A stretch of DNA of 37,745 bases from Gammaproteobacteria bacterium. Lineage in GTDB: Bacteria; Pseudomonadota; Gammaproteobacteria; Pseudomonadales; Halieaceae. Below the pieces are notes generated by a model. It had not been told where the DNA came from. It was given only the letters and a program-made list of their open reading frames with translations, and did not search any database. Shown here piece by piece: positions 5,336-28,473 of this stretch. Location: assembly GCA_030428835.1 (NCBI GenBank), contig JAUIEP010000031.1:1-37745 (forward strand), written 5' to 3'. Both the position numbers and the translations under genes were made by a program. The first letter of the stretch is position 1. Every line of letters begins with the position of its first letter.

Positions 5336-7297
5336 CTAGCTGGCGCGACGCACCGGCAGCGCGCGGGCGGCCGAAGAATACCGCTCCGCGCACGCGTCCA
5401 GGACAGCCTCCAGCATCGCGGCATAATCCATGCCGGCGAGTGCCGCCATGGCGGCGAGGTGGCCGTCCCAGCACCAGCCGGGGTTGGGGTTGGCCTCCAG
5501 CAGGCGCGGCGTGCCGTGGGCGTCCAGTCGCCAGTCGAAACGTGCGTAGTCGCGACAGCCGAGGCGCTGGAACAGCTTGATGCAGGACGCGCTCAGGAAA
5601 TCCACGGTGGCCTGCGGCAGCTGCGCGGGAATGGACTTCACATTGGTGAAGTACACGGACTCCGTGTCCCACTTCGCCTCGTAGCCACAGACGCGCGGCA
5701 GGTCCGGGGGCAGCTCCGAGTAGTCCTCCTCGATGATGGGCAGTACCGAATAGCTGTCCGGTGGGTTGCCGACGATGCCGACACTGAGGTCCTTACCCGT
5801 CAGGTACTGCTCGACCAGCACGGGATGATCGAAGCCCACGACATCGCGTACCCGGCTGATCGCGCGTTCCAGTTGCACGATGTCATAGCAGACGCTGTCC
5901 GCGGTGATGCCGACACTGGAATCGCCGAAGTTCGGTTTCACGATCACCGGGAAATCCAGGGGCAGGGCGATGAACGCGACCTGCTCCGGCGAAACCACGA
6001 AGGCCTCGGGAACCGGTATGTCCATCTCACTGGCGATACCCCGTACCAGCGATTTGTCATAGCAATAGGCCAGGCACTGCGGGTCGCCGCCGGAGTAGGG
6101 GATGTTGAGCATCTCCAGCAGGGCGGGGACGTGCAGTTCCTTGAGCGCCTCGTTGTTGAAACCCTCGTCGCACAGGTTGAACACGAAGTCGAACTTGCCG
6201 GCGCTCGCGCGCAGGTCATCCATCAGGCTGCCGTGGTCGTCCAGGTAGTCGATCTCGTAACCGTCCAGGCCCGCGAGCGCCGTCTTCAGCTCGTTGATCG
6301 TGTGGAAGTCATCGTCATCGAACTGGCTGTTGGGTTTGACCGAATCGGCGCGCCGGTGGTCGCCCATGACGACGCGCACGCGCTTCTTCGTGGGCAGGTG
6401 GCTTTCCTGCGCACCCTCGCGCTTGGTGGAGCGGGCGGTGAGCAGGATGCGTTGCGCCATCATGCCCAGGTCCTGGTTGCGCTTGGACTCCGTGGACATG
6501 GGTTCGGCCCGCTCCACCTCGAACCCTAAGTCGCGCAGCAGCGCGCCCAGTTGCTCCTGGTTGTAGAGTCGCTCGGCGTAGAACTGGTCGGCAACGACGC
6601 CCTTCTTGACGTGCGTGATGACTTCGCGGGATATCAGTCGCTGGGCGTCGCGGGACAACGAGCGCTCGCGACAAACGAAATAGTTTTCGTCGATCCACTC
6701 CCAGCTGCGCGGCTGGTACTGCGTGCGCAGGTAGTCGCCGTCGGTGAAGTCGAACAACACCATGCCGGAGGGCTTCAGTATCCGCCGCAGTTCCCGCAAT
6801 ACCGCGCGGTCGTCGTCGGCACTCTCGAAGTAGCCGAAACTGTTGCCGCCGAGAAATACGAAGTTGAAATGGTTGTCCGGGAAGCGCAGGCGGCGGGCGT
6901 CACCCTCGCGGAAGGTCACGTCAAGGCCGACCCGCCGCGCGGTACGGCGCGCCCGGTTGATGAGGTAGTGGGAGCGGTCGACGCCGTACAGGCGGCGGAA
7001 GCCGCGCCGTGCCAGTTCGAGCACATGCCGGCCCTGGCCACAGCACAGGTCCAGGATCACGGCGTCTTCACCCACCTCGGCCATGCGCAGGAAGGCGTCG
7101 ATCTCCGCATCGGTGATCTCCGGGTCCTCCACCACGTCGCCGTCGGTGCGCAGGTAGTTGGCGTTGAAGATATCCCGCCACCAGTCGGCTTTCACGTAGC
7201 TTTCCAGGTCATCCACGGGGCCGATGGACGCGCGCAGGACGGCGCGCTCGCGCGCGGGTTTGCGGCCCGCGGGTTTGGGGTTAGAGCCAGTTGACAT
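5336..7297 (-). CDS. SAM-methyltransferase fused to D-Ala-D-Ala-ligase-like ATP-grasp domain
   Basis: This is a single 653-residue reading frame with two enzymes. Residues about 35-285 are a class I methyltransferase with SAM-binding motif ILDLCCGQGRH (81-91), followed by GVDRSHYLINRA and a post-motif region VFLGGNSFGYF. Residues about 305-635 are an ATP-grasp ligase related to D-alanine-D-alanine ligases, with FNLCDEGFNNEA, the lysine-bearing PVIVKPNFGDSSVGI strand and the metal-binding LLEANPNPGW (600-609). ATP-grasp enzymes join a carboxylate to an amine through an acyl phosphate. A good ribosome site (AGGAG) precedes the ATG. The next gene is an amide hydrolase of the aspartoacylase family. 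The product is not identifiable; an N-methylated amino acid amide or dipeptide would fit. No peptidoglycan genes are near, so a cell wall ddl role is unlikely. Confidence 0.85.
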   Translation of the reverse strand: MSTGSNPKPAGRKPARERAVLRASIGPVDDLESYVKADWWRDIFNANYLRTDGDVVEDPEITDAEIDAFLRMAEVGEDAVILDLCCGQGRHVLELARRGFRRLYGVDRSHYLINRARRTARRVGLDVTFREGDARRLRFPDNHFNFVFLGGNSFGYFESADDDRAVLRELRRILKPSGMVLFDFTDGDYLRTQYQPRSWEWIDENYFVCRERSLSRDAQRLISREVITHVKKGVVADQFYAERLYNQEQLGALLRDLGFEVERAEPMSTESKRNQDLGMMAQRILLTARSTKREGAQESHLPTKKRVRVVMGDHRRADSVKPNSQFDDDDFHTINELKTALAGLDGYEIDYLDDHGSLMDDLRASAGKFDFVFNLCDEGFNNEALKELHVPALLEMLNIPYSGGDPQCLAYCYDKSLVRGIASEMDIPVPEAFVVSPEQVAFIALPLDFPVIVKPNFGDSSVGITADSVCYDIVQLERAISRVRDVVGFDHPVLVEQYLTGKDLSVGIVGNPPDSYSVLPIIEEDYSELPPDLPRVCGYEAKWDTESVYFTNVKSIPAQLPQATVDFLSASCIKLFQRLGCRDYARFDWRLDAHGTPRLLEANPNPGWCWDGHLAAMAALAGMDYAAMLEAVLDACAERYSSAARALPVRRAS

Positions 7298-7509: not shown

Positions 7510-8733
7510 TCAGCGGCCGAGTCCTCGCCCGCGCAGCCGGCACTTCACGCCCAGTGCCTGGGCCAGTTCGCGCGCCAGCGGTACCGCCTGGCGCAGCGCG
7601 TCCGCGCGCGGCAGGCTCCTGCTCGTTTCCAGCACCAGCAACGCCGGCGTCGCACCCGCCGACAGCACCTCCAGGTCGCAGCTGAAATCCGACCGGCCGA
7701 TAGTAGCGCTCTCGCCACCGCCGCCCGCGGTGGTAGACAGGTCGTTCGCCGTCATGCCGATACATTCGATCTGGCGAAAGGGCAACGCCGTGGTGCGCAG
7801 CGGCGACCGGACCGTGACGCAGCGCTCGTCCCAGTCGAAGACGACGCTGCGCGGCAGGCGTCGCAACAGAAGCCACAGCAGCGCGCCGCCGATACCGCAG
7901 GAGATCAGCGTGACGATGCCGAGGGTGACCACGTCGAGCGGTTGGTCGCGCAGCCAGCGCGACACCGCCAGCGCCGGGCCCGCGAAGAGCAGGCACGAGC
8001 CGAGGGCGAGCGGCACCACCACCGGCGTCACGCCGCGACGGAACGCGATGCGCGTGCCCGGTCGCCAGTCCACCACGGCCAGGTTCGCGTTCAGCGACCC
8101 GGGATCAAACGGGGGCAGGGCGGGGTGGCGCAGCAGGCGGGCGATGTACTTCTGGAGTGCCTGGCGGTCCTCGCCGGGCGGTAGCTCCCCGAAACCCGGT
8201 GCTGCGGCATTTGCGGCACGTATCTCCAGGTTGAGGTCGGCCACGCGGAACACGCCGAAGGCCGGCAGCCCCGCCGCGGCAGCCAGGTGCAGACCGAGTT
8301 CCACGAGTTGTTCGATTCGCTCGACACTGTGCAGGCGCAGCGGGAGGCGCGTGGTGCGCGGCCCCGCGTCGCTTGCATGCCAGAGCGTCAGGCTCAGGGC
8401 CCGGCACTGCTGCAGCGCGGCGTCCGCGGCCTGCTCGTCGAACCCGCCGCTGTCGGTGCGCCCGGCCTTGAACGCCCGCACGAGACCCGACAGAGACGGC
8501 CTGGCCATGTCGTCGCTCCAGTCGAGGCAAAACCCTGTCAATGCCGGCAGCGGGATCACCTGGTCAGAGCTGTTGCCGGTCACCGACCGCCGGGTGATCG
8601 TCAGCCGACCTGCTGGACGATCACAACTCAGCGTGTAATGGCCGCTGGAGAAGGCCAGCCGCTCGCCGGATTCAAGCGCGTCCAGGCCCAGGCTTGCGCC
8701 GACCTGCCTGTCGCGGTCACTACTGTCCGGCAT
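7510..8733 (-). CDS. Unknown membrane protein (407 aa)
   Basis: I do not recognise this family. The protein has a long soluble N-terminal half (about 1-225), two adjacent hydrophobic helices (about 233-257 and 265-290), and a C-terminal beta-rich region beginning VFDWDERCVTVRSPL and ending in a basic tail. The arrangement is that of a membrane-anchored protein with both large domains on the same side of the membrane. It begins 12 bases after the upstream membrane-protein gene ends, so the two form an operon and probably act together. The composition is typical of the window, with no sign of transfer. The first residues (MPDSSDRDRQ) have no signal peptide. Confidence 0.7.
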   Translation of the reverse strand: MPDSSDRDRQVGASLGLDALESGERLAFSSGHYTLSCDRPAGRLTITRRSVTGNSSDQVIPLPALTGFCLDWSDDMARPSLSGLVRAFKAGRTDSGGFDEQAADAALQQCRALSLTLWHASDAGPRTTRLPLRLHSVERIEQLVELGLHLAAAAGLPAFGVFRVADLNLEIRAANAAAPGFGELPPGEDRQALQKYIARLLRHPALPPFDPGSLNANLAVVDWRPGTRIAFRRGVTPVVVPLALGSCLLFAGPALAVSRWLRDQPLDVVTLGIVTLISCGIGGALLWLLLRRLPRSVVFDWDERCVTVRSPLRTTALPFRQIECIGMTANDLSTTAGGGGESATIGRSDFSCDLEVLSAGATPALLVLETSRSLPRADALRQAVPLARELAQALGVKCRLRGRGLGR

Positions 8734-8745
8734 GGCGGCGACCGC

Positions 8746-9681
8746 TCATTGGAACACCGGTAGATCGAAGCGCGCGAAGAAGGGCAGCGGCAGCGCGCTG
8801 GCGGCGAGTTCCAGCGTCCAGGTAATGTCGGCACCCGATGCGCGTTTGCCCGAACCGGGCAGCCCCGCGGGAATTTTAAGCCGGACCGGCAGACCGGTAT
8901 GCAGCGCTTTGCTGCCGCCGGGCACCGTTTGGCTGCCGGCCCACAGCTCCGTCGTGTGCGTGGACGAGGAGTCACCCGAACCGGTCTTCACGACGCGCAC
9001 GCATTTCAGGGTAATGACGAACTCGCCGCGTATCGCAATTCGCCGCCGGTTGCGCACCGTGCCTGTAAGCCCCTGGCCGATAATGCCCCGCCCGCTGTCG
9101 ATACGCAGCTCACTGCGACCGAACACCAGCGCGCGCACTGTCTCTAGTGCCGCCCAGGCGAGAAGCGCAAGACCGGCCAGCGGGAAGATAAAGCCGAACG
9201 CCGCGGCATAGTTCTGCTCTTCGAATACCACCGGCACCAGCGCAAGTCCGATGGGGATAGTGAGCGCGTTGCAGAGCAGGGCCAGCACGCCGAGGCCGAT
9301 GGCGAGACGGGAACTCTTGCTGGCCACCACGCCGTTCTCCCAGTCCGGGTCGTGCTTCCAGGGCGCGTCCGGGTAGGTCCGGGCGAGTTGCGCCGCGCGG
9401 CGAAAGTAAGCCGCCGAGGAAAACGTGCCGGCGACGATCGCGCCGCCGAGCAGCGAAAGCAGCAGGCCGCCGGCCGCTGTGGCCAGTAACTGCGTGGTCG
9501 TGGTTTCCGGATTGGGGAGTAGCAGCAGGAACTGTACAAGGCCGAATACGCCCGGCAGAAACAGTAGCGCGCCGAACAGGACCAACAGCCACCGCCAGAC
9601 GCCCAGGGCGGTGCGCTTGTCACCTGGCTGCTGTTGGTTCGGCATCGGCGGAGTCCCATCGACTGGGCGACCATCACTCAT
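8746..9681 (-). CDS. Unknown multi-pass membrane protein (311 aa)
   Basis: The start is placed at the ATG at 9681 because GGGAG lies 6-7 bases before it; an in-frame start at 9708 has no such site. Four hydrophobic segments are seen: WRWLLVLFGALLFLPGVFGL, LLATAAGGLLLSLLGGAIVAG, LAIGLGVLALLCNALTIPIGL and AAFGFIFPLAGLALLAWAAL. A C-terminal domain of about 130 residues follows, rich in beta strands and Ser/Thr. Between the second and third helices is an acidic loop (YPDAPWKHDPDWENG). This resembles proteins often grouped as DUF3592-like, but I cannot confirm that. It is the first gene of a two-gene operon with the 407-residue membrane protein. No function is assigned. Confidence 0.7.
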   Translation of the reverse strand: MSDGRPVDGTPPMPNQQQPGDKRTALGVWRWLLVLFGALLFLPGVFGLVQFLLLLPNPETTTTQLLATAAGGLLLSLLGGAIVAGTFSSAAYFRRAAQLARTYPDAPWKHDPDWENGVVASKSSRLAIGLGVLALLCNALTIPIGLALVPVVFEEQNYAAAFGFIFPLAGLALLAWAALETVRALVFGRSELRIDSGRGIIGQGLTGTVRNRRRIAIRGEFVITLKCVRVVKTGSGDSSSTHTTELWAGSQTVPGGSKALHTGLPVRLKIPAGLPGSGKRASGADITWTLELAASALPLPFFARFDLPVFQ

Positions 9682-9789
9682 GTACTCCCGGAGGCTGGCC
9701 CTTGTCAAGCGCTGGCAGGGAACGGACAGCCCTTGTTGCGCCAGGGTCGGAAGGGCCCGCCGACCCGACGTCGCCGCGCAGCGCTCGAT

Positions 9790-11463
9790 TTACTCCGGAG
9801 CCGCGTGAGGGGCGGGCGGTATCGCGTCCAGCGCTGTGCGCAGGGAGCGGGGATAGCTGTCCCGCGAAATGGTTTTGAAGTACCTGTCGACAACGGGAAG
9901 CGCCGCGCACAGGTTACTGAAGTCCTGTCTTCGCAATACCAGGACGCGGGTATCCTCGCGCGAGACCAGGGTGCCCTGTACCGTAGCGTTGCCGGCCAGG
10001 CTGCGTTCGCCCCAGTGGTCGCCGGGTCCGATGAGTTGGACAACGTCTTCACCGTCGGGGTCGTCGCTGGTTATCCTGGACTCGAGCTGTCCGTCGACCA
10101 CCGTGTAGAAACCGTCCAGGATCTGGCCCGGCTTGCAGACGATGTCGCCGCGCGCGAAGCACATGTAACGGGCGGCGGCCGGTTCGCTGTTTGCGATCTG
10201 TACGATGCTGCGCGGCAGGAAGTAGTCGAACAGCCAGTTCAGTGCAACGCGGAGTCGCGTGGAAAAACTCGGCAACATGCCGATGTAGATGCCGCGCCAC
10301 AGTAGCCACGCGAACAGTCCGGACAGGCGGACGCCCGCGATTTCGGCGACCCCGTTGTAGTTCCCGAGGGAAGCCAGCGCTCCCAGCGGCCGATAGCGGA
10401 ATGCCGCCAGTGGTTTATCGTCGAGCGCCAACGCGATGTTGCGCGCGGCGCACCTGGCCTCCCGAACGGCGAACTGGGCGGTGGGCGGCGCCACTTCCGG
10501 GGATTTGCCCTCCCTGTCCGGCTGGGTGATCAGGGCCGCGTCACCGACTGCCCATACCGTGTCATGGCCTTTCACCCGTAACATCGCGTCCGTCTCGATC
10601 TTGCCGCGTTGCATCGGCAGGCCGAGCTTCTGCACCAGTGGGGAGGGGCCGTTCCCGACGGTGGTCAACAACGTGCTGGTCTCGATGCGCTCGCCATCGC
10701 CCAGGAACACGGCGGTCGCGGTAGCCGAGCGCAACGAGGCACCCAGGCGAATTTCCAGCCCGCGCCTTTCAAGATTCCTGCGCGCGAACTCCCCGAGCTT
10801 GGGCGGCAGCTCCGGCAGGATACGTTGCCCGCGCTGCACCAGGATGCCCCGGATTTCCTTCTCGTCGATATTGGGGTAGTGCCTGCGGGTGCGGCGCACC
10901 ATGTCCATCAGCTCACCCAGGGTCTCCACCCCGGAAAACCCACCGCCGGCGACGACGAACGTCAGCAATCGGCGTTTGAGCGCCTTGTCCTCTGTGATGT
11001 CGGCATGTTCCAGGCACTCGATGATGTGATTGCGCAGGCTGTGCGCGTCGGCGAGATCCCGCATCGTCCGGCTGTGGTCCTCGAAACCCGGGTAGCGCGA
11101 CAGGTCCGTTTTTTGCCCGAAGGCGATGACGAGGTGGTCATAGCTCACCCTGAGCGGATTGCGCTTGCTGCCCTGTACGATGTGGACAATTTTCTGCTGC
11201 AGGTCGATGTCTCGCACCTCCGCCATGCGCACCTTGACGCGGGGCAGGAGCAGGCGCAGCGAGGTGACGGCGTCGGGAGCGCTGATGATCCCGGATGCTA
11301 CCTCCGGCAGCAGGGGCTGGAAGACGAAGTAGTTATTCTGGCTTATCAACTCCACGTCTACCTTGTCCGCGGCGTAGCGCCTCAGGTAACGCGCGCAGTA
11401 CACGCCACCGAAACCTCCGCCAAGAATAACGACTCTCTGTCGAGCATTTGCTTCAGGTTGCAT
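9790..11463 (-). CDS. Type II NADH dehydrogenase fused to a cNMP-binding-like domain
   Basis: The 557-residue protein starts as an NDH-2 flavoenzyme: the FAD-binding Rossmann motif VVILGGGFGG (11-20), QNNYFVFQPLLPEVASG, a second nucleotide-binding motif FVVAGGGFSGVETLGEL, and WAVGDAALI near the FAD ribityl site. A hydrophobic stretch SGLFAWLLWRGIYIGMLP corresponds to the C-terminal membrane-binding part. After about residue 425 a Crp/cNMP-binding-type beta barrel is appended (GDIVCKPGQILDGFYTVVDGQLE to FSNLC). In its phosphate-binding cassette GERSLAGNATV the usual Arg before the Thr/Ser-Ala pair appears absent, so cyclic-nucleotide binding is doubtful. NDH-2 oxidises NADH and reduces quinone without pumping protons. 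An AGGAGG ribosome site overlaps the end of the preceding gene, with 5 bases between them, so it is the last gene of the EGKCG-peptide operon. Confidence 0.88.
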   Translation of the reverse strand: MQPEANARQRVVILGGGFGGVYCARYLRRYAADKVDVELISQNNYFVFQPLLPEVASGIISAPDAVTSLRLLLPRVKVRMAEVRDIDLQQKIVHIVQGSKRNPLRVSYDHLVIAFGQKTDLSRYPGFEDHSRTMRDLADAHSLRNHIIECLEHADITEDKALKRRLLTFVVAGGGFSGVETLGELMDMVRRTRRHYPNIDEKEIRGILVQRGQRILPELPPKLGEFARRNLERRGLEIRLGASLRSATATAVFLGDGERIETSTLLTTVGNGPSPLVQKLGLPMQRGKIETDAMLRVKGHDTVWAVGDAALITQPDREGKSPEVAPPTAQFAVREARCAARNIALALDDKPLAAFRYRPLGALASLGNYNGVAEIAGVRLSGLFAWLLWRGIYIGMLPSFSTRLRVALNWLFDYFLPRSIVQIANSEPAAARYMCFARGDIVCKPGQILDGFYTVVDGQLESRITSDDPDGEDVVQLIGPGDHWGERSLAGNATVQGTLVSREDTRVLVLRRQDFSNLCAALPVVDRYFKTISRDSYPRSLRTALDAIPPAPHAAPE

Positions 11464-11468
11464 AACGG

Positions 11469-12977
11469 CTACCTCCTGGAATGATTGATCACCAGCGTTT
11501 TCTGTATCTGCATGTTGCGCAGGGCGTAGCGGACGCCGCCAACACCCAGTCCGGACTCCCGCACGCCGCTGAAAGGCATCGCTTCCGTGTGAAAGGCCGT
11601 ATGGTCATTCACAATCACCGCGGAGGCATCGAGCAGGGTATGGGCGCGCACGGCCAGCGCTATATCGTGCGTAAACACCGCGGCCTGTAGTGCGAACGGC
11701 AGGTTGTTGGCCATGTCGAAGGCGCGTTCGATAGTCTCGTAGCCGTAAACGCAGATCACCGGGCCGAGAATTTCCATGCGACTGACCTTCGCTTCGAGCG
11801 GCGGGTCGAGGAGTACCGTGCAGGCGTACAGGTTGTTGCCGGGGCGTGCGCCGCCGCACAGGCATTCGGCCCCGCCGGCGACGGCTTCCGCTACCCAGCG
11901 GTGTACCCTGTCGACTTCCCCGGGAGCGATCAGCGGACCCACCTGGGTGGTGTCGTTGCGCGGGTCGCCGATGCGCAGCCTGCACGCCTCTTGCGCCAAC
12001 TCTGCAGCGAACTGGCGCGCCTGCGCGACCGGTACATAGACGCGCTGGACCGACACGCGAGACTGGCCCGCGTGATAGTAGCCTCCCTGCGCGATGGCCT
12101 TTATGGCACGCGCGCGATCGGCATCCGGCGCGACCACGACCGGCGCCGCGCCACCATGTTGCAGTGCGCACCGGGTTCCGGGCCCGAGTTTCGAGCGCAG
12201 CGCCCACCCGGTGCCCGATTTGCCGATGAAGCTGACGAAGTCGACGCGACGGTCGGTCGCCAGTTGCTCGCGCAACCCGGAATCCCCGGTGACGATTGCC
12301 TGCGCCCATTCCCTCGGTAAGCCCGACTTCCACAGGATGTCGACCAGCCTGAGGCAGGACAGCGGCGTTTTTTCCGAGGGATTGACTAACACGGGGCATC
12401 CGGCGGCGACCGCGGCCGCAACCTGCTGGACGACGAGCGCCAGCGGGTGGCTGAAGTCACTGATCGCCACGGCGACGCCGATCGGCGCATGCAGGCTCAG
12501 CGCGATCCTGTCCCGGGAATTGCCGGTCGTCCCCATCGGCACGACTTCGCCGGCATGACTCCTCAGCTCGTTGATGGCCTGGCGCACGATGTCGATCGAG
12601 CGCGTGACTTCCACCAGTGAATCGGGCATCGGCTTGCCGCTTTCCAGGCAGACAAGCAACGCCAGGTCCGCGTGGTCGCGAGACATCATGCGGGCCGAGC
12701 GCTCCAGAATGCCTATGCGCTCGTCCAGCGGTATCCAGCCGGCCTTGTCCCTGAACCGGTCATGCGCGCACTGCAGTGCCCGCTCAATGTCTCGCTGGCT
12801 GCCCACGGGTGCATGGCCGATCACGCTGTCATCGAAGGGCGCCGTTACCGGCAGCGTCGGGGTGCTGTCGGACGGGTTGGCCAGCATGGGCTCCCACGCC
12901 GCCTCGGGCCGTGGCTGTCGTTCCGTCGTGCCCGGCGATGCCGCGCCGGGGCGGGTCAGGCTGTTCTGGATGTTCAC
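11469..12977 (-). CDS. Aldehyde dehydrogenase-superfamily protein lacking catalytic Cys and Glu
   Basis: The start is set at the GTG at 12977 because a strong GGAGG lies 6-7 bases before it; a longer frame to 13079 would run into the doxX gene. The 502-residue product follows the NAD(P)-aldehyde dehydrogenase fold along its whole length: ISDFSHPLALVVQQVAAAVAAGCPVLVNPSEKTPLS, SFIGKSGTGW and NDHTAFHTEAMPFSGVRESGLG. Two catalytic positions are changed. The nucleophile motif, usually GQxC, reads GQSRVSVQRVYV, with Arg where the Cys should be. The LELGG motif carrying the general base reads LQHGG, with Gln for Glu. It should not oxidise aldehydes in the normal way and may be a structural or binding protein. 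It lies between doxX and the NDH-2 gene with short gaps of 28 and 5 bases. Confidence 0.88.
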   Translation of the reverse strand: MNIQNSLTRPGAASPGTTERQPRPEAAWEPMLANPSDSTPTLPVTAPFDDSVIGHAPVGSQRDIERALQCAHDRFRDKAGWIPLDERIGILERSARMMSRDHADLALLVCLESGKPMPDSLVEVTRSIDIVRQAINELRSHAGEVVPMGTTGNSRDRIALSLHAPIGVAVAISDFSHPLALVVQQVAAAVAAGCPVLVNPSEKTPLSCLRLVDILWKSGLPREWAQAIVTGDSGLREQLATDRRVDFVSFIGKSGTGWALRSKLGPGTRCALQHGGAAPVVVAPDADRARAIKAIAQGGYYHAGQSRVSVQRVYVPVAQARQFAAELAQEACRLRIGDPRNDTTQVGPLIAPGEVDRVHRWVAEAVAGGAECLCGGARPGNNLYACTVLLDPPLEAKVSRMEILGPVICVYGYETIERAFDMANNLPFALQAAVFTHDIALAVRAHTLLDASAVIVNDHTAFHTEAMPFSGVRESGLGVGGVRYALRNMQIQKTLVINHSRR

Positions 12978-13005
12978 GGAGGACCTCCGGGGATCAATGC
13001 GTTTC

Positions 13006-13542
13006 TCATGCTGCCGTTGCGACACCTGGGTAGCCCTGCCCGGGCGTGCGGCGGGACCAGCGGCTGCAGAGATAGTCAATACTCAACTTGCCGGCACCGT
13101 TGAACAGCAAGGGCAGGAACATCACGAGGTACAGGACCGGCAGCTTGTAGTTGCCGTGGCCCTTGTCGGATATCGTGTAGCCCTGCAGCAGTTCCGCGAT
13201 CGAGTGCCACTCGCTGGGCCAGTGCACGGCAGCGGTAGCGACGAGCGTCAAGATGATCAGTGTCGCGCTGAAGAACCGGGTGCCGAACCCGAGCAGGATG
13301 GCGACGGCGCCGACCAGTTCAGAATACGTTGCCAGGTTCCAGCTGATATCCGCCGGTATGACGGAAAAGGGAAACGGAAAGTCGTCCATGATGTGGCTGA
13401 ACCAGTTGGAACCGTTCAGTTTCATCAGGCCGGCCTCGAAAAACTCCCATGCAAGGACGATACGCAGGCCGAGCGGGGCGATATAGGCGCCTGTCCTCTC
13501 CAGGTTACGTGTGATCAGTGACCACGTGTTGGTTACGTTCAT
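13006..13542 (-). CDS. DoxX-family membrane protein
   Basis: The start is the ATG at 13542, preceded by GAGGAG at the right distance; an in-frame start at 13653 is not supported. The 178-residue protein has four hydrophobic helices and the DoxX hallmark RIVLAWEFFEAGLMKLNG in the first. Later come ELVGAVAILLGFGTRFFSA and LPVLYLVMFLPLLFNGAGKLSIDYL. DoxX proteins are small membrane subunits linked to quinone or thiol redox chemistry, and they are common partners in operons for EGKCG or bufferin-type peptides. Here doxX directly follows the EGKCG-repeat gene, with a 149-base gap holding a hairpin, and precedes the aldehyde dehydrogenase-like gene. Confidence 0.9.
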   Translation of the reverse strand: MNVTNTWSLITRNLERTGAYIAPLGLRIVLAWEFFEAGLMKLNGSNWFSHIMDDFPFPFSVIPADISWNLATYSELVGAVAILLGFGTRFFSATLIILTLVATAAVHWPSEWHSIAELLQGYTISDKGHGNYKLPVLYLVMFLPLLFNGAGKLSIDYLCSRWSRRTPGQGYPGVATAA

Positions 13543-13624
13543 GTTTATCTCCTCGTTGTGATTGCGCACCGGTAGCGTCGCCGCCGCGGCAGGTTCGAAG
13601 CATGTGCGAAGCAGTAAGTCGGGA

Positions 13625-13654
13625 TGTGCCCTGCGGGATTTCCGCCCGGGCACA
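13625..13654 (-). other. Intercistronic hairpin after the EGKCG-peptide gene
   Basis: An inverted repeat TGTGCCC (13625-13631) / GGGCACA (13648-13654) encloses a second one, GCGG (13633-13636) / CCGC (13642-13645). It lies in the gap between the peptide gene and doxX and has no T-run. It could be a stabilising or attenuating structure that lets the first gene be expressed above the rest. Confidence 0.4.
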
Positions 13655-13691
13655 CCCTTGTCGGCGGCTTACGGCATCGACCGCAATGCGC

Positions 13692-14084
13692 CTAGCTGCC
13701 GCACTTGCCCTCGCCGCACTTGCCCTCGTCGGCGGCCTTTTCGCTGCCACCGCACTTGCCCTCACCGCACTTGCCCTCGTGAGTCGACTTCTCGGTGCCG
13801 CCGCATTTACCCTCGCCGCACTTGCCCTCGTCGGCGGCCTTTTCGCTGCCGCCGCACTTGCCCTCACCGCACTTGCCCTCGTCGGCGGCCTTCTCGCTGC
13901 CGCCGCACTTGCCTTCACCGCACTTGCCTTCGTCGACCTTGTCGGCGGCGGCCAGCAGGTAGCCGGCGTCCAGTGCGACGAGCGCAAAGGGGTTGGCGTC
14001 GGCTGACGCCTGCGGCACGACCGCCGTCGCCAGGAATGCCGCGCCGAGCGCGGTGCACAGGGGTTTCATCTTGTTGGTAGCCAT
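13692..14084 (-). CDS. Secreted EGKCG-repeat peptide (HvfA/bufferin-like RiPP precursor candidate)
   Basis: The 130-residue protein has an N-terminal signal peptide (KMKPLCTALGAAFLATAV, cleavage probably after ASA near residue 28) and a short linker. From residue 52 it has five copies of a 17-residue unit, each holding two EGKCG motifs: cysteines 55, 60, 72, 77, 89, 94, 106, 111, 123 and 128. In known loci of this type (hvfABCD of Haemophilus, and bufferin operons) the EGKCG cysteines are converted by an iron-dependent MNIO (DUF692) enzyme into copper-binding oxazolone/thiooxazole groups, and a DoxX gene is part of the operon. Here doxX follows, but no MNIO or DUF2063-type partner is in the window. 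The gene has a good ribosome site (GAGGAACAG) and a sigma-54 promoter. Metal binding by the unmodified cysteines is the alternative role. Confidence 0.85.
   Translation of the reverse strand: MATNKMKPLCTALGAAFLATAVVPQASADANPFALVALDAGYLLAAADKVDEGKCGEGKCGGSEKAADEGKCGEGKCGGSEKAADEGKCGEGKCGGTEKSTHEGKCGEGKCGGSEKAADEGKCGEGKCGS
13695..13931 (-). repeat. Tandem 51-bp coding repeats
   Basis: Four complete 51-base units and one partial unit encode EGKCGEGKCGGSEKAAD and close variants. The third unit ends TEKSTH instead of SEKAAD. The period is a multiple of three, so repeat number can change without breaking the frame. Confidence 0.9.
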
Positions 14085-14177: not shown

Positions 14178-14193
14178 AGCAGGATGCGTGCCA
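14178..14193 (-). promoter_or_regulatory. Sigma-54 (-24/-12) promoter for the EGKCG-peptide operon
   Basis: The minus strand reads TGGCACGCATCCTGCT. It matches the consensus TGGCACG-N4-TTGCW at every fixed position except one T, with correct spacing. Predicted start is near 14167, about 80 bases before the ATG of the EGKCG-peptide gene. Confidence 0.78.
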
Positions 14194-14303: not shown

Positions 14304-14496
14304 CGTCAATTGCAGATGGCGTGCCGCCGGGTTTTTCTATGGCGCCGGGCCGTTCTTGCGCGGGATCGGGGCAGGTGCGGGACCGTGGGCGCGCCGTTGT
14401 CACGGCCGCTGCCAAGGGGCGACAAAATGACGCGCGGCCGGGCGTTACCTGCTATTCTCGAAAGCGCCTGCCGTAGTCGGTGAGGCGGAAGTCCCG

Positions 14497-16443
14497 TTGC
14501 TACCTGATCGCGCAATGCCTGCCTTTGATGAAGACACAGCCCTTCGCCATATCCTGAACGGCACCGCAGGTGAGACCGGTGCACTCTTCTTCAGGGCCCT
14601 CGTCAGCAACCTGGCCACCGCCTTCGATACCGATTTCGCCTGGATAACCGAGTTCCTACCCGAGACGCAGACGCTGAAGGCACTGGCCTTTTACCAGGAC
14701 GGTGAATTTGCGGACGGCTTCGAGTATGCCCTTCACGGCACCCCCTGCGAGCCCGTCATACAGGGCAAGAGCATCGTCCATCACCCCAGCGAGGTGCAGT
14801 CGCACTACCCCGAGGACCCCGATCTGCAAGAGCTCGGCATGGTCAGCTATCTCGGTATTCCGCTGCTCGCCAACGACGGCGCCGTGCTGGGCCACATGGC
14901 CATCATGGACAGGAAGACCATGCCCGAGGAGCCCAGGGGCGTTGATGTCTTCCGTATATTTGCCGCGCGGGCAACCGCGGAGTTGAATCGCCTGCGGGCC
15001 GAGAAGGTGATAACGGACCAACAGCGTGAGCAGGCGCGGTTGAGCCGCCAGTTGCAGCAGGCAGTGGATGACCTCGCCGTCAGCGAGGGCCGCTTTCGCG
15101 ACCTGTTCGACGAGGCGCCTATCGCCTATGTGAATGAAGGACTGGACTCGCGATTCATTCGCGCCAACAAGACCGCGCTCAAGATACTGGGTATCGCGCC
15201 CGGGGAGGCGGAGGGCTTTCTCGGCCGCTCCCTCGTGCCCGAGAAGAGCGACGCGCAACAAAGAGTCACGGACGCGCTGGACACGATCAATCGCGGTCTC
15301 GACGCCGACAGTGTCGTCCTCGAGCTGCGTCGCCACGACAACGGGGCGCCGGTCTGGGTGCAGTGGTGGTCCAAGCCGGACCCCAGCGGTGAATTCACGC
15401 GCACGATGTTCGTCGATATTACCGACCGGGTGCTGCTGGAACAGGAAAACAGCGCACTGCAGAAGCACAATGCCTACCTGCAGGAGGAACTGGACCGGGA
15501 GGCGCCGCGCGGCATCGTGGGCGGCAGCGCCGCCATGAGGAGCGTGCTCGCGGACATCGAGCAGGTCGCGACGACCGATGCCAGTGTGTTGATCCTCGGC
15601 GAAACGGGCACCGGCAAGGAGGTGGCCGCCAGGGCGGTCCACGAGGCCAGCGCGCGCGCGGGCAACCCGCTTATCAAGGTCAATTGCGGCGCTCTTCCCG
15701 AGTCGCTCATCGAGAGTGAATTGTTCGGGCACGAGAAGGGCGCGTTCACCGGCGCGACGACGAAACGCGAGGGGCGCTTTTCCCTGGCCGACGGCGGTAC
15801 GATTTTCCTCGATGAAATCGGTGACCTGCCGTTCCAGCTACAGGTCAAACTGCTGCGCGTGCTGCAGGAAGGCGAGTTTGAACCACTGGGCAGCGCCACC
15901 ACGCGCAGGGTGGACGTGCGCGTGATCGCGGCAACCAACAGGGATCTGTTTGAGCTGGTGCAGGACGGCGAGTTTCGCGAGGACCTTTACTATCGCCTGG
16001 CGGTGTTTCCCATACACCTGCCGCCCCTGCGGGAACGGCTGGAAGATTTACCGGATCTCGCGAGCGCGTTCGCGAGGGAGTTCGCGCGGCGCCTCAACAA
16101 AGCGGTCGAGCCGTTTTCCGAGGAGGAGTTGTCGCAGTTGGCCGGTTACGCCTGGCCCGGCAATATTCGAGAGTTGCAGAATGTCATCGAACGCGCGCTG
16201 ATCACGTCGGACTCCGGCAGGCTCAACCTGCATCGCGCCCTGCCCGCAAGCCCGGCCAGCCTGCCGGGTGACGGCGTGAAGACCGCGTCCGAAATCGAGC
16301 AGATAGAGCGGGAAAATGTGCTGCGGGCGTTGCAGCAGTCGGGCTGGAAGATTTCCGGTGAGGCCGGCGCGGCCGAGCTGTTGGGCGTAAAGCCGACCAC
16401 GCTGACCTCCCGCCTGAAAGCGCTGAATATCAAGCGGCCCTAG
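14497..16443 (+). CDS. GAF-PAS sigma-54-dependent transcriptional activator
   Basis: The 648-residue FhlA/NtrC-type regulator has a GAF domain (about 25-165, with [22 protein letters not shown]), a helical linker, a PAS domain (about 195-312) and an AAA+ domain with Walker A GETGTGKE (368-375), canonical GAFTGA (415-420) and Walker B GGTIFLDE (433-440). A C-terminal Fis-type helix-turn-helix ends [17 protein letters not shown]. The start may be the TTG at 14497, which has GAGGCGGAA upstream, or the ATG at 14515. It is divergent from the EGKCG-peptide operon, which has a sigma-54 promoter, so it is the obvious candidate regulator. The GAF and PAS domains should sense a small molecule or redox state directly, since there is no receiver domain. 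Confidence 0.92.
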
Positions 16444-16707
16444 GTTGCCGGAAACCTGTCAATCGGCGTTCGACAGCGTGTGCGAATGGCTTATACTGAC
16501 GTTCTATCAGGCAGTAATCGGTACAAGATCGAGTTTTCATGTACGACCCCGCAAATGTCCGGGGCGACCTTCGCCGCCGTTGTTCCCGACACCGTTTTAA
16601 CGGCCTCGCTCGAGCACTGCGCTTATCCCCCGTTACATGCGAGACCAGCGGTTTTGCCTGAGTCGCCCGAGACTACTCCAAACGGACTGAGTCCCGAAGC
16701 ACACCTG

Positions 16708-18051
16708 ATGCGGCGGTTCCTGGTCTGGACCAGCATCGCGTTGTCTGCGGCGGAGTTGCTGGTCTTCATCCTGTGGGTCATGTACAGCACCCGCACGGCG
16801 CTGGTGATGCTCGTGGTCATCCCGGTCGGCGGCCTGGCGACCCTCGGCTACGCCTACCGCCTGGCCGGGCAGAACCGTGTCGACGCCGCGGTGTTCGTCT
16901 TTTCCGGGCTGATCTGGATCATCAGCCTGATCGCGGGAGCGGCGCGCGGCGGAGGGCTGTTGTCGGTGGCGGCGCTGCTGGCCCTCGCGCCGGTCGTCGT
17001 GGGTGTCGCCTACTCGTCGCGCATCGCCATACTGCGCATCATCCTGATCTCGGTGGCCGTGTGCGCCGCGGCCTCGCTGCTCAACACTTTCGATAACCTG
17101 ATGCCCACGCAGATCACCGAGACGAGCGTACGCTGGGTGGAGGGCATCGTCGCGACGACCTTCGTCGCCCTGTTCTCCTTCTCGCTCTGGCACTCGGCGT
17201 CCCGGCTGCGCGAAATGCTGGAGCAGATGCAGGAGACGAACCGTGCCCTGGCAGAGTCGGAGCGCAGCCTCGAGCGCAAGGTCGAGGAGCGGACCCAGCG
17301 GCTGCAGGACGAACTGCAGGTGGCGGCGCAGTACGTTCGTTCGCTGCTGCCGCCGCCGATCTCCAACGACCGCGGCGTGTCCGTGCACTGGATTTACGAG
17401 CCCTCGGCCGAGCTCGGCGGCGACGCCTTTACCTACCTGCACCTCGACGCTGAACACGACGCCCTGGCGCTGCTCGACGTGTGCGGGCACGGCGTGGGCG
17501 CCGCGCTGCACGGCGTGGCCGCAATCCAGGCCCTGCGTTCGCGGCGGCTTCCCGGTATCGACCTGCGCGACCCCGAGCGCGTCGTCGCCGCGATGAACGA
17601 CGCCTTTCCCATGGAGGAGCACGGCGACCTGTTCTTCTCGCTCTGGTACGGCGTACTCAACCGCTCGTCGCGCACCCTGCGCTACGTGAGCGCCGGGCAC
17701 CCGCCGGCACTGCTCATCGAGCAGGATGCATCGGGCTCGCCGCGGGTGCAGGAACTGCACACGGACGGGCCGCTGATCGGCATCCTGCCGGGCGTGGCCT
17801 ATGCGAGCGCCAAGGTGCAACTCCGTCCCGAGTGTGAGCTGATTGTCTTCTCCGACGGCGCCTACGAGCTGCCGCAACCCTCCGGCGCCATGCTGCCCTG
17901 GCCCGACTTCGTCGGCGCGGTGGCGAAGGGGCCGGAGGGGCACCCGCTGCGGCCGAGCGAGATACTCGAATTCGCGCGCAGCAAGATGGGGCGCGAACGT
18001 CTCGACGACGACTTCTCGGTGGTCAATGTGAGCTTCCGCAGCGCCGCCTGA
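16708..18051 (+). CDS. Membrane PP2C/SpoIIE-type serine phosphatase (RsbU-like)
   Basis: The frame is open from 16480, but the ATG at 16708 is preferred because it lies just before the first membrane helix; the ribosome site is weak, so the start is uncertain. From there about 447 residues: six hydrophobic helices in the first 165 residues, a coiled coil (LEQMQETNRALAESERSLERKVEERTQRLQDELQ) and a SpoIIE/PP2C domain. The metal-binding motifs are visible: ELGGDAF, LLDVCGHGVGAAL, SAGHPPALL, LIVFSDGAYE and DDDFSVVNV. Such phosphatases dephosphorylate a STAS-domain antagonist. Here a STAS gene and an anti-sigma kinase gene lie immediately downstream in convergent orientation, completing a partner-switching set. 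The membrane part is likely the sensor. Confidence 0.88.
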   Translation: MRRFLVWTSIALSAAELLVFILWVMYSTRTALVMLVVIPVGGLATLGYAYRLAGQNRVDAAVFVFSGLIWIISLIAGAARGGGLLSVAALLALAPVVVGVAYSSRIAILRIILISVAVCAAASLLNTFDNLMPTQITETSVRWVEGIVATTFVALFSFSLWHSASRLREMLEQMQETNRALAESERSLERKVEERTQRLQDELQVAAQYVRSLLPPPISNDRGVSVHWIYEPSAELGGDAFTYLHLDAEHDALALLDVCGHGVGAALHGVAAIQALRSRRLPGIDLRDPERVVAAMNDAFPMEEHGDLFFSLWYGVLNRSSRTLRYVSAGHPPALLIEQDASGSPRVQELHTDGPLIGILPGVAYASAKVQLRPECELIVFSDGAYELPQPSGAMLPWPDFVGAVAKGPEGHPLRPSEILEFARSKMGRERLDDDFSVVNVSFRSAA

Positions 18052-28457: not shown

Positions 28458-28473
28458 TGGCACGATGTTTGCT
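28458..28473 (+). promoter_or_regulatory. Sigma-54 (-24/-12) promoter for the DUF2970 gene
   Basis: The plus strand reads TGGCACGATGTTTGCT, a full match to TGGCACG-N4-TTGCW. It starts 16 bases after the fisR stop, and the predicted start near 28485 leaves about 34 bases before the ATG at 28519. Confidence 0.85.

Follow-up and report, generated by a model that had tools for sequence, protein, structure and literature searches.

How would a peptide bearing the EGKCG motifs on which MNIO enzymes act be finished when its operon carries none of the modifying genes? The question is raised by a four-gene operon (positions 9790 to 14084) in a 37,745-nucleotide stretch of DNA, hereafter the window, which is contig JAUIEP010000031.1 (positions 1 to 37,745, forward strand) of a gammaproteobacterium of the family Halieaceae (assembly GCA_030428835.1). 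A preliminary description, made from the letters of the window, recognised a secreted precursor with ten EGKCG motifs, a doxX neighbour, a catalytically dead aldehyde dehydrogenase (ALDH)-like protein and an NDH-2 fusion. It offered three options: enzymes acting in trans, cysteines used unmodified, or a different modification system formed by the ALDH-like and NDH-2 proteins. We lean towards the first option, as part of a larger explanation. The operon would be a reduced copy of a sigma-54-controlled captophorin (oxazolin/HvfA-type) operon like one found in G016, a genome of the same genus; its ALDH would have become a pseudoenzyme, and its peptide would be modified in trans by the HvfB and HvfC proteins (HvfBC) encoded on another contig, C75. 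The operon and its control region comprise six features:

13692..14084, reverse strand: HvfA-type precursor with a Sec-type leader, an NPF...GY motif and ten EGKCG motifs, the signal peptide being judged from sequence
about 13006..13542, reverse strand: HvfX, of the DoxX family, start codon picked by eye
about 11469..12977, reverse strand: ALDH-like protein, a predicted pseudoenzyme (C307R, E273Q, N176S, K199N, S253K), with a GTG start behind GGAGG, picked by eye
9790..11463, reverse strand: NDH-2-type NADH dehydrogenase with a C-terminal cNMP-binding-like domain
14178..14193, reverse strand: sigma-54-type (-24/-12) promoter, TGGCAC-N5-CTGC, with one mismatch to consensus
14515..16443, forward strand: divergent sigma-54 activator with GAF, PAS, AAA+ and HTH_8 domains, containing GAFTGA

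All four operon reading frames are open. Searching the window with tblastn revealed no MNIO or DUF2063 gene, in agreement with the preliminary description, and queries for hvfB, hvfC, acetolactate synthase (ALS), glutamate synthase (GltS) and the Na/H exchanger gave no match better than E 0.009. We reject a loss of hvfB and hvfC (hvfBC) through faulty assembly: the activator and hvfA are separated by 412 to 430 bases of a single contig, and no remnant was found.

The precursor has 130 residues and 11 cysteines, and its ten EGKCG motifs are arranged as five doubled units. It scores 108.6 bits against the NCBIfam HvfA domain NF050137 (cut-off 19.5), which bears out its recognition as a carrier of the MNIO substrate motif. 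Against the strict HvfA equivalog NF050188 it scores 73.4, under the cut-off of 95; precursors that adjoin hvfBC miss this cut-off too (C75, 46.1; G016, 54.5), and the G026 precursor passes (97.8). In the ten-codon repeat core we counted 26 synonymous and no non-synonymous differences (60 synonymous and 240 non-synonymous sites), summed over all unit pairs, which are not independent of one another. On these counts the repeats look constrained. HvfX scores 144.7 bits against NF050144 (cut-off 80), confirming the doxX neighbour; one of 45 invariant columns is changed, compared with none to three in nine other HvfX proteins, and it too looks constrained. The genome encodes two HvfX proteins above the cut-off, this one and one on contig C154.

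The preliminary description proposed sigma-54 control, and three features support it: the one-mismatch site upstream of hvfA (read from 14193 to 14178), the GAFTGA motif of the divergent activator and an RpoN gene in the genome. Judged by these features, the operon is predicted to be sigma-54-dependent. A weaker second site, with two mismatches, lies upstream of hvfA at 14326 (reverse strand). Sites with at most one mismatch number four in the window, against a mean of 0.45 in 20 mononucleotide shuffles of it. The G016 activator is 70% identical to that of the window, and a perfect site precedes hvfB there. Two further genomes, G358 and G353, have two-mismatch sites between activator and operon, a class for which no chance rate was computed; operon sites are present in all four activator-linked loci. 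A search of 390 genomes of the order with the activator matched 22 at E 1e-20, and of four of the best matches inspected, two have the ALDH module (G358, G353) and two are cut by contig ends (G404, G371).

Other scans of the window added little. Between 9400 and 14600 we found no sigma-70-type promoter, using a scan that is weak in GC-rich DNA, and six terminator-like sites against 4.1 expected; a search for repeats as activator binding sites gave nothing convincing. We reject an RNA element, the window holding no Rfam family at gathering score, and likewise a role in defence, for the PADLOC match is the activator only, with RtcR-type AAA+ proteins as best models. Further sigma-54-type sites stand at 28458 (forward strand), 397 and 27034 (both reverse), two perfect and one with one mismatch. 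A SpoIIE-type phosphatase gene follows the activator (16480-18051), and at 5336-7297 a methyltransferase domain shares a single reverse-strand frame with an ATP-grasp domain of the D-Ala-D-Ala-ligase type.

Did the operon once carry its own enzymes? A fuller relative, missed by the preliminary description, lies on contig C49 of G016; the five-gene order of the window was not seen in another genome read. On the other strand from the activator, C49 carries hvfB, hvfC, hvfA, hvfX, ALS, ALDH, an FMN-type GltS and a Na/H exchanger gene. Its hvfA also encodes ten EGKCG motifs, its HvfX and ALDH are 67% and 58% identical to those of the window, and its ALDH has intact catalytic residues. Gene lists for this and the other loci are incomplete, because the picking of open reading frames favours the longest frames in GC-rich DNA, and key genes were confirmed by tblastn. 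The window and G016 HvfX proteins are sisters (95/83) within a clade of Lysobacterales and betaproteobacterial HvfX (100/100) that stands apart from the HvfX common in the host family, and several members of this clade belong to full hvfABC sets. In a tree of 41 of the 53 HvfB rows, the C49 HvfB groups with that of G102 (99/94) and then with those of Lautropia and Rhodocyclaceae (90/75), with long branches flagged.

The history could also have run the other way. If the window arrangement were the older one, hvfA and hvfX under the activator would always have used the resident HvfBC in trans, and G016 would later have gained hvfBC in the interval from promoter to hvfA. Several observations favour this and weigh against our explanation. 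The C49 locus (L111, 9347-12345) is the only one with hvfB before hvfA among loci with both genes, an order that could mean insertion of hvfBC in G016; the available text of a survey (PMC12452194) calls the bufABC order strictly conserved. In G102 the nearest HvfB occurs together with an HvfX of the other type, which lowers the odds that hvfBC were lost, and two Lysobacterales with the HvfX type of the window have their HvfB elsewhere in the tree. Apart from this history, the evidence for constraint on the repeats is weakened by possible gene conversion, which could have evened them out. Against the older-window history stand the placement of the two HvfX proteins in a clade with members from full hvfABC sets and the grouping, long branches included, of the C49 HvfB with Lautropia and Rhodocyclaceae. 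We regard this history as unlikely, although it fares better than the other rivals; loss of hvfBC in the window lineage seems likelier than insertion in G016.

Where, then, might the enzymes come from? The preliminary description had suggested searching the rest of the genome, and there we found one MNIO gene: the HvfB of an hvfA-hvfB-hvfC set on C75, whose HvfC scores 312.8 bits. This set and the window are the two EGKCG loci of the genome. The MNIO accordingly has a precursor of its own, an arrangement that the preliminary description had named, together with a lack of modification of the window peptide, as speaking against its account. The assembly is in 319 contigs (99.98% complete, 3.06% contaminated), and a second MNIO in a gap is possible; G016 has three MNIO genes. 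We compared 31 HvfA loci, namely the two of the window genome and the 29 best-match loci among the matches listed. An hvfB match lies within the stretch in 28 of them; the window and G026 have none, and the remaining locus, L066, is cut by a contig end. G026, of the same family, thereby provides a second example of an hvfA-hvfX pair (L187, 7349-8367) with no MNIO in the 11.7 kb read. Downstream, the C75 hvfABC genes are followed by a gene for a SpoIIE-type phosphatase with a receiver domain and by a STAS gene (L002, 3262-4924), and SpoIIE matches occur near hvfABC in three relatives (L171, L173, L189).

Orphan EGKCG precursors, and the idea that they are modified from another locus, are already published. 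The available text of PMC12452194 counts 2583 genomes with EGKCG precursor genes, of which 67 lack MNIO genes; for unlinked precursors it suggests that modification may come from another locus or be absent altogether. The window precursor is like the orphan Buf_EGKCG precursors of that survey in being unlinked to an MNIO that lies elsewhere in the genome; it stands apart from them through the fuller locus of a relative, the sigma-54 control and the neighbouring metabolic genes. As far as the accessible parts of three further papers go, HvfBC-type enzymes need the signal sequence for efficient modification (PMC13419390), they accept single changes ahead of the core and require two repeats (PMC12668002), and the leader is conserved in Microbulbifer (PMC12538549). 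The window leader keeps the layout of the family: of its 28 residues, 15 are shared with the C75 HvfA, 14 with that of C49 and as many as 20 with others. Such a leader would allow recognition by the C75 pair, and we claim no more for it. Judging from gene content, the C75 HvfBC most likely acts in trans on the window peptide, which makes this the best supported of the three options first offered.

Supply in trans has its own difficulties. The window leader is about equally like the C75 and C49 leaders, and from NPF onwards the precursor is nearest to C49 (13 of 20 residues, against 8 of 20 for C75). In addition, our scan gave no sigma-54 site for the C75 hvfABC genes, and the two loci may therefore not be co-expressed. 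Perhaps, then, the peptide is no longer modified and serves with HvfX as a plain cysteine-rich metal or thiol buffer. An operon without hvfBC and a sole MNIO with its own precursor would suit such a role, and the available text of PMC12452194 lists 'not modified' among the possibilities for precursors that are unlinked. We nevertheless find it doubtful, and less plausible than the reversed history above, because the window peptide keeps the doubled EGKCG motif and the leader layout used by modifying enzymes, in a genome that has an HvfBC pair.

What has become of the ALDH? The protein scores 363.8 bits against Pfam Aldedh. Aligned to the solved structure 5kf0, it has Arg for the catalytic Cys (C307R), Gln for the general base Glu (E273Q) and Ser for the oxyanion Asn (N176S); K199N, S253K and F404L fall at what we take to be cofactor-site positions, the residue roles being those of the ALDH family. 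The catalytic Cys and Glu are kept in all 28 other close orthologs read. Across 113 columns invariant in 13 other orthologs, the window protein changes 21 and that of G016 four, and leaving out each of the 13 in turn gives 0-8; the column set comprised 12 of 13 other loci of at least 43% identity (G064, with stops in the match, was left out) together with G358 and G353. The protein is thus predicted to be a pseudoenzyme, and the dead active site reported in the preliminary description is confirmed. With nucleophile, general base, oxyanion Asn and cofactor-site residues lost, ALDH chemistry is not possible, and we reject a new modification chemistry by this protein.

That loss, with the several genes absent relative to G016, might suggest that the whole locus is a decaying remnant without function. 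We consider this quite improbable: the HvfA repeats and HvfX look constrained, the promoter site and the GAFTGA activator are present and four frames remain open.

The company kept by the ALDH in relatives suggests how the operon was assembled. We read 29 loci with close ALDH orthologs, the window included (a partial match in G354 was left out); these stretches differ in length, and some are cut short at a contig end. ALS-like genes occur in 19 (11 at least 65% identical to the G016 ALS), GltS in 8, the exchanger, HvfX and the activator in 4 each, and the NDH-2/cNMP gene in 2. EGKCG codons are present in two, the window and G016; for 27 of the 28 other orthologs, the stretch read contains no EGKCG precursor. 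From this distribution, ALDH, ALS and GltS seem to form an older group, which the hvf genes joined later. Since ALS and/or GltS adjoin the ALDH in other families, with support from G353 and G358, we attribute their absence from the window to a probable loss in its lineage. The genome does have an ALS of another kind (41%), on contig C168. The ALS-ALDH-GltS loci of G353, G358 and G047 resemble the window in their orthologous ALDH and, in G353 and G358, in the activator and promoter-like site; they differ in having no EGKCG precursor, an intact ALDH, and ALS and/or GltS, and the HvfX in G358 and G047 is of the other type.

Genes for ALDH, ALS, FMN-type GltS, HvfX and the exchanger recur in six loci of related genomes (L111, L167, L169, L177, L185, L186), and three genomes among them share the same sigma-54 activator. 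In two loci (L146, L148, about 8300-10500) an HvfX of the window type follows MsrP/MsrQ-looking genes, with no EGKCG codons in the stretch. On plasmids, the G016 ALS protein matched 159 records; ALDH stands beside ALS in one of two regions read, and neither lists hvf genes or the activator in a gene table that is incomplete.

The last gene of the operon is the hardest to place. Its Pyr_redox_2, NDH2_C and cNMP_binding domains (Pfam) confirm the NDH-2 fusion, the first two identifying it as a putative NDH-2, and flavin motifs are present. Across 203 columns the window protein changes 29, those of G143 and G283 change 19 and 12, and five copies from the same genus 0-5, with sampling accounting for part of this spread (G011, partial, and G100 were left out). 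Matches occur in nine of 145 genomes, the window's own included. Wider surroundings were read for four of the other eight (G143, G010, G012, G100), and no precursor was seen in them; HvfX adjoins the gene in G100, and rpoD/dnaG-like genes in G010 and G012. In G283 about 1.5 kb and two genes separate a 54% relative from the ALDH, and in G020 there is a 43% match some 3 kb away from hvfABCX. This recurrence, which speaks against our verdict below on the third option, makes a looser NDH-2 link possible, and we describe the association as loose and recurring. The third option first offered, here taken as a different redox or modification system in which the ALDH-like protein, NDH-2 and HvfX together act on the peptide, could draw on this recurrence, the short ALDH-to-NDH-2 spacing and the flavin motifs, but it is the least credible of all, given the lost ALDH residues, the 27 orthologs without a precursor and the NDH-2 relatives of G010 and G012 beside rpoD/dnaG-like genes with no precursor.

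Our favoured explanation, the reduced G016-like operon, can be set out as a sequence of events. An ancestor shared with G016 would have had the activator, the sigma-54 promoter and hvfB-hvfC-hvfA-hvfX-ALS-ALDH-GltS-exchanger. The window lineage would have lost hvfBC, ALS, GltS and the exchanger; its ALDH would have lost the active site, and the NDH-2/cNMP gene would have come to follow it. On a signal, the activator and RpoN polymerase would make HvfA and HvfX. The C75 HvfBC would bind the window HvfA leader and convert the EGKCG cysteines to thiooxazoles before Sec export, and the exported peptide would bind copper in the periplasm, assisted by HvfX.

Compared with the known oxazolin/captophorin clusters (hvfABCX of Haemophilus influenzae, fonABC of Fontimonas thermophila), the operon shares the EGKCG precursor, the signal-type leader and HvfX/DoxX. 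It is unlike them in having hvfB and hvfC elsewhere in the genome, which leaves the cluster incomplete, and in its sigma-54 activator and promoter, pseudo-ALDH and NDH-2. In the literature searched we found no account, for such clusters, of sigma-54 control, of linkage to ALS, ALDH and glutamate synthase, or of a pseudo-ALDH.

PMC12452194, in its available text, leaves it open whether orphan EGKCG precursors undergo modification. With one MNIO and two precursor loci here, and a counterpart with its own hvfBC in G016, these genomes provide a natural test of modification in trans. The sigma-54 activator and the link to ALS, ALDH and glutamate synthase point to a signal and a role beyond what the copper work suggests. 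A bolder reading, tentative and improbable as a whole, is that this activator family runs a stress programme coupling a copper-binding thiooxazole peptide and HvfX to metabolic bypass enzymes (ALS, ALDH, FMN-type GltS and Na/H exchanger), a programme which in the window lineage shrank to the peptide, HvfX, a non-catalytic ALDH scaffold or sensor and NDH-2, with the peptide finished by enzymes of another locus.

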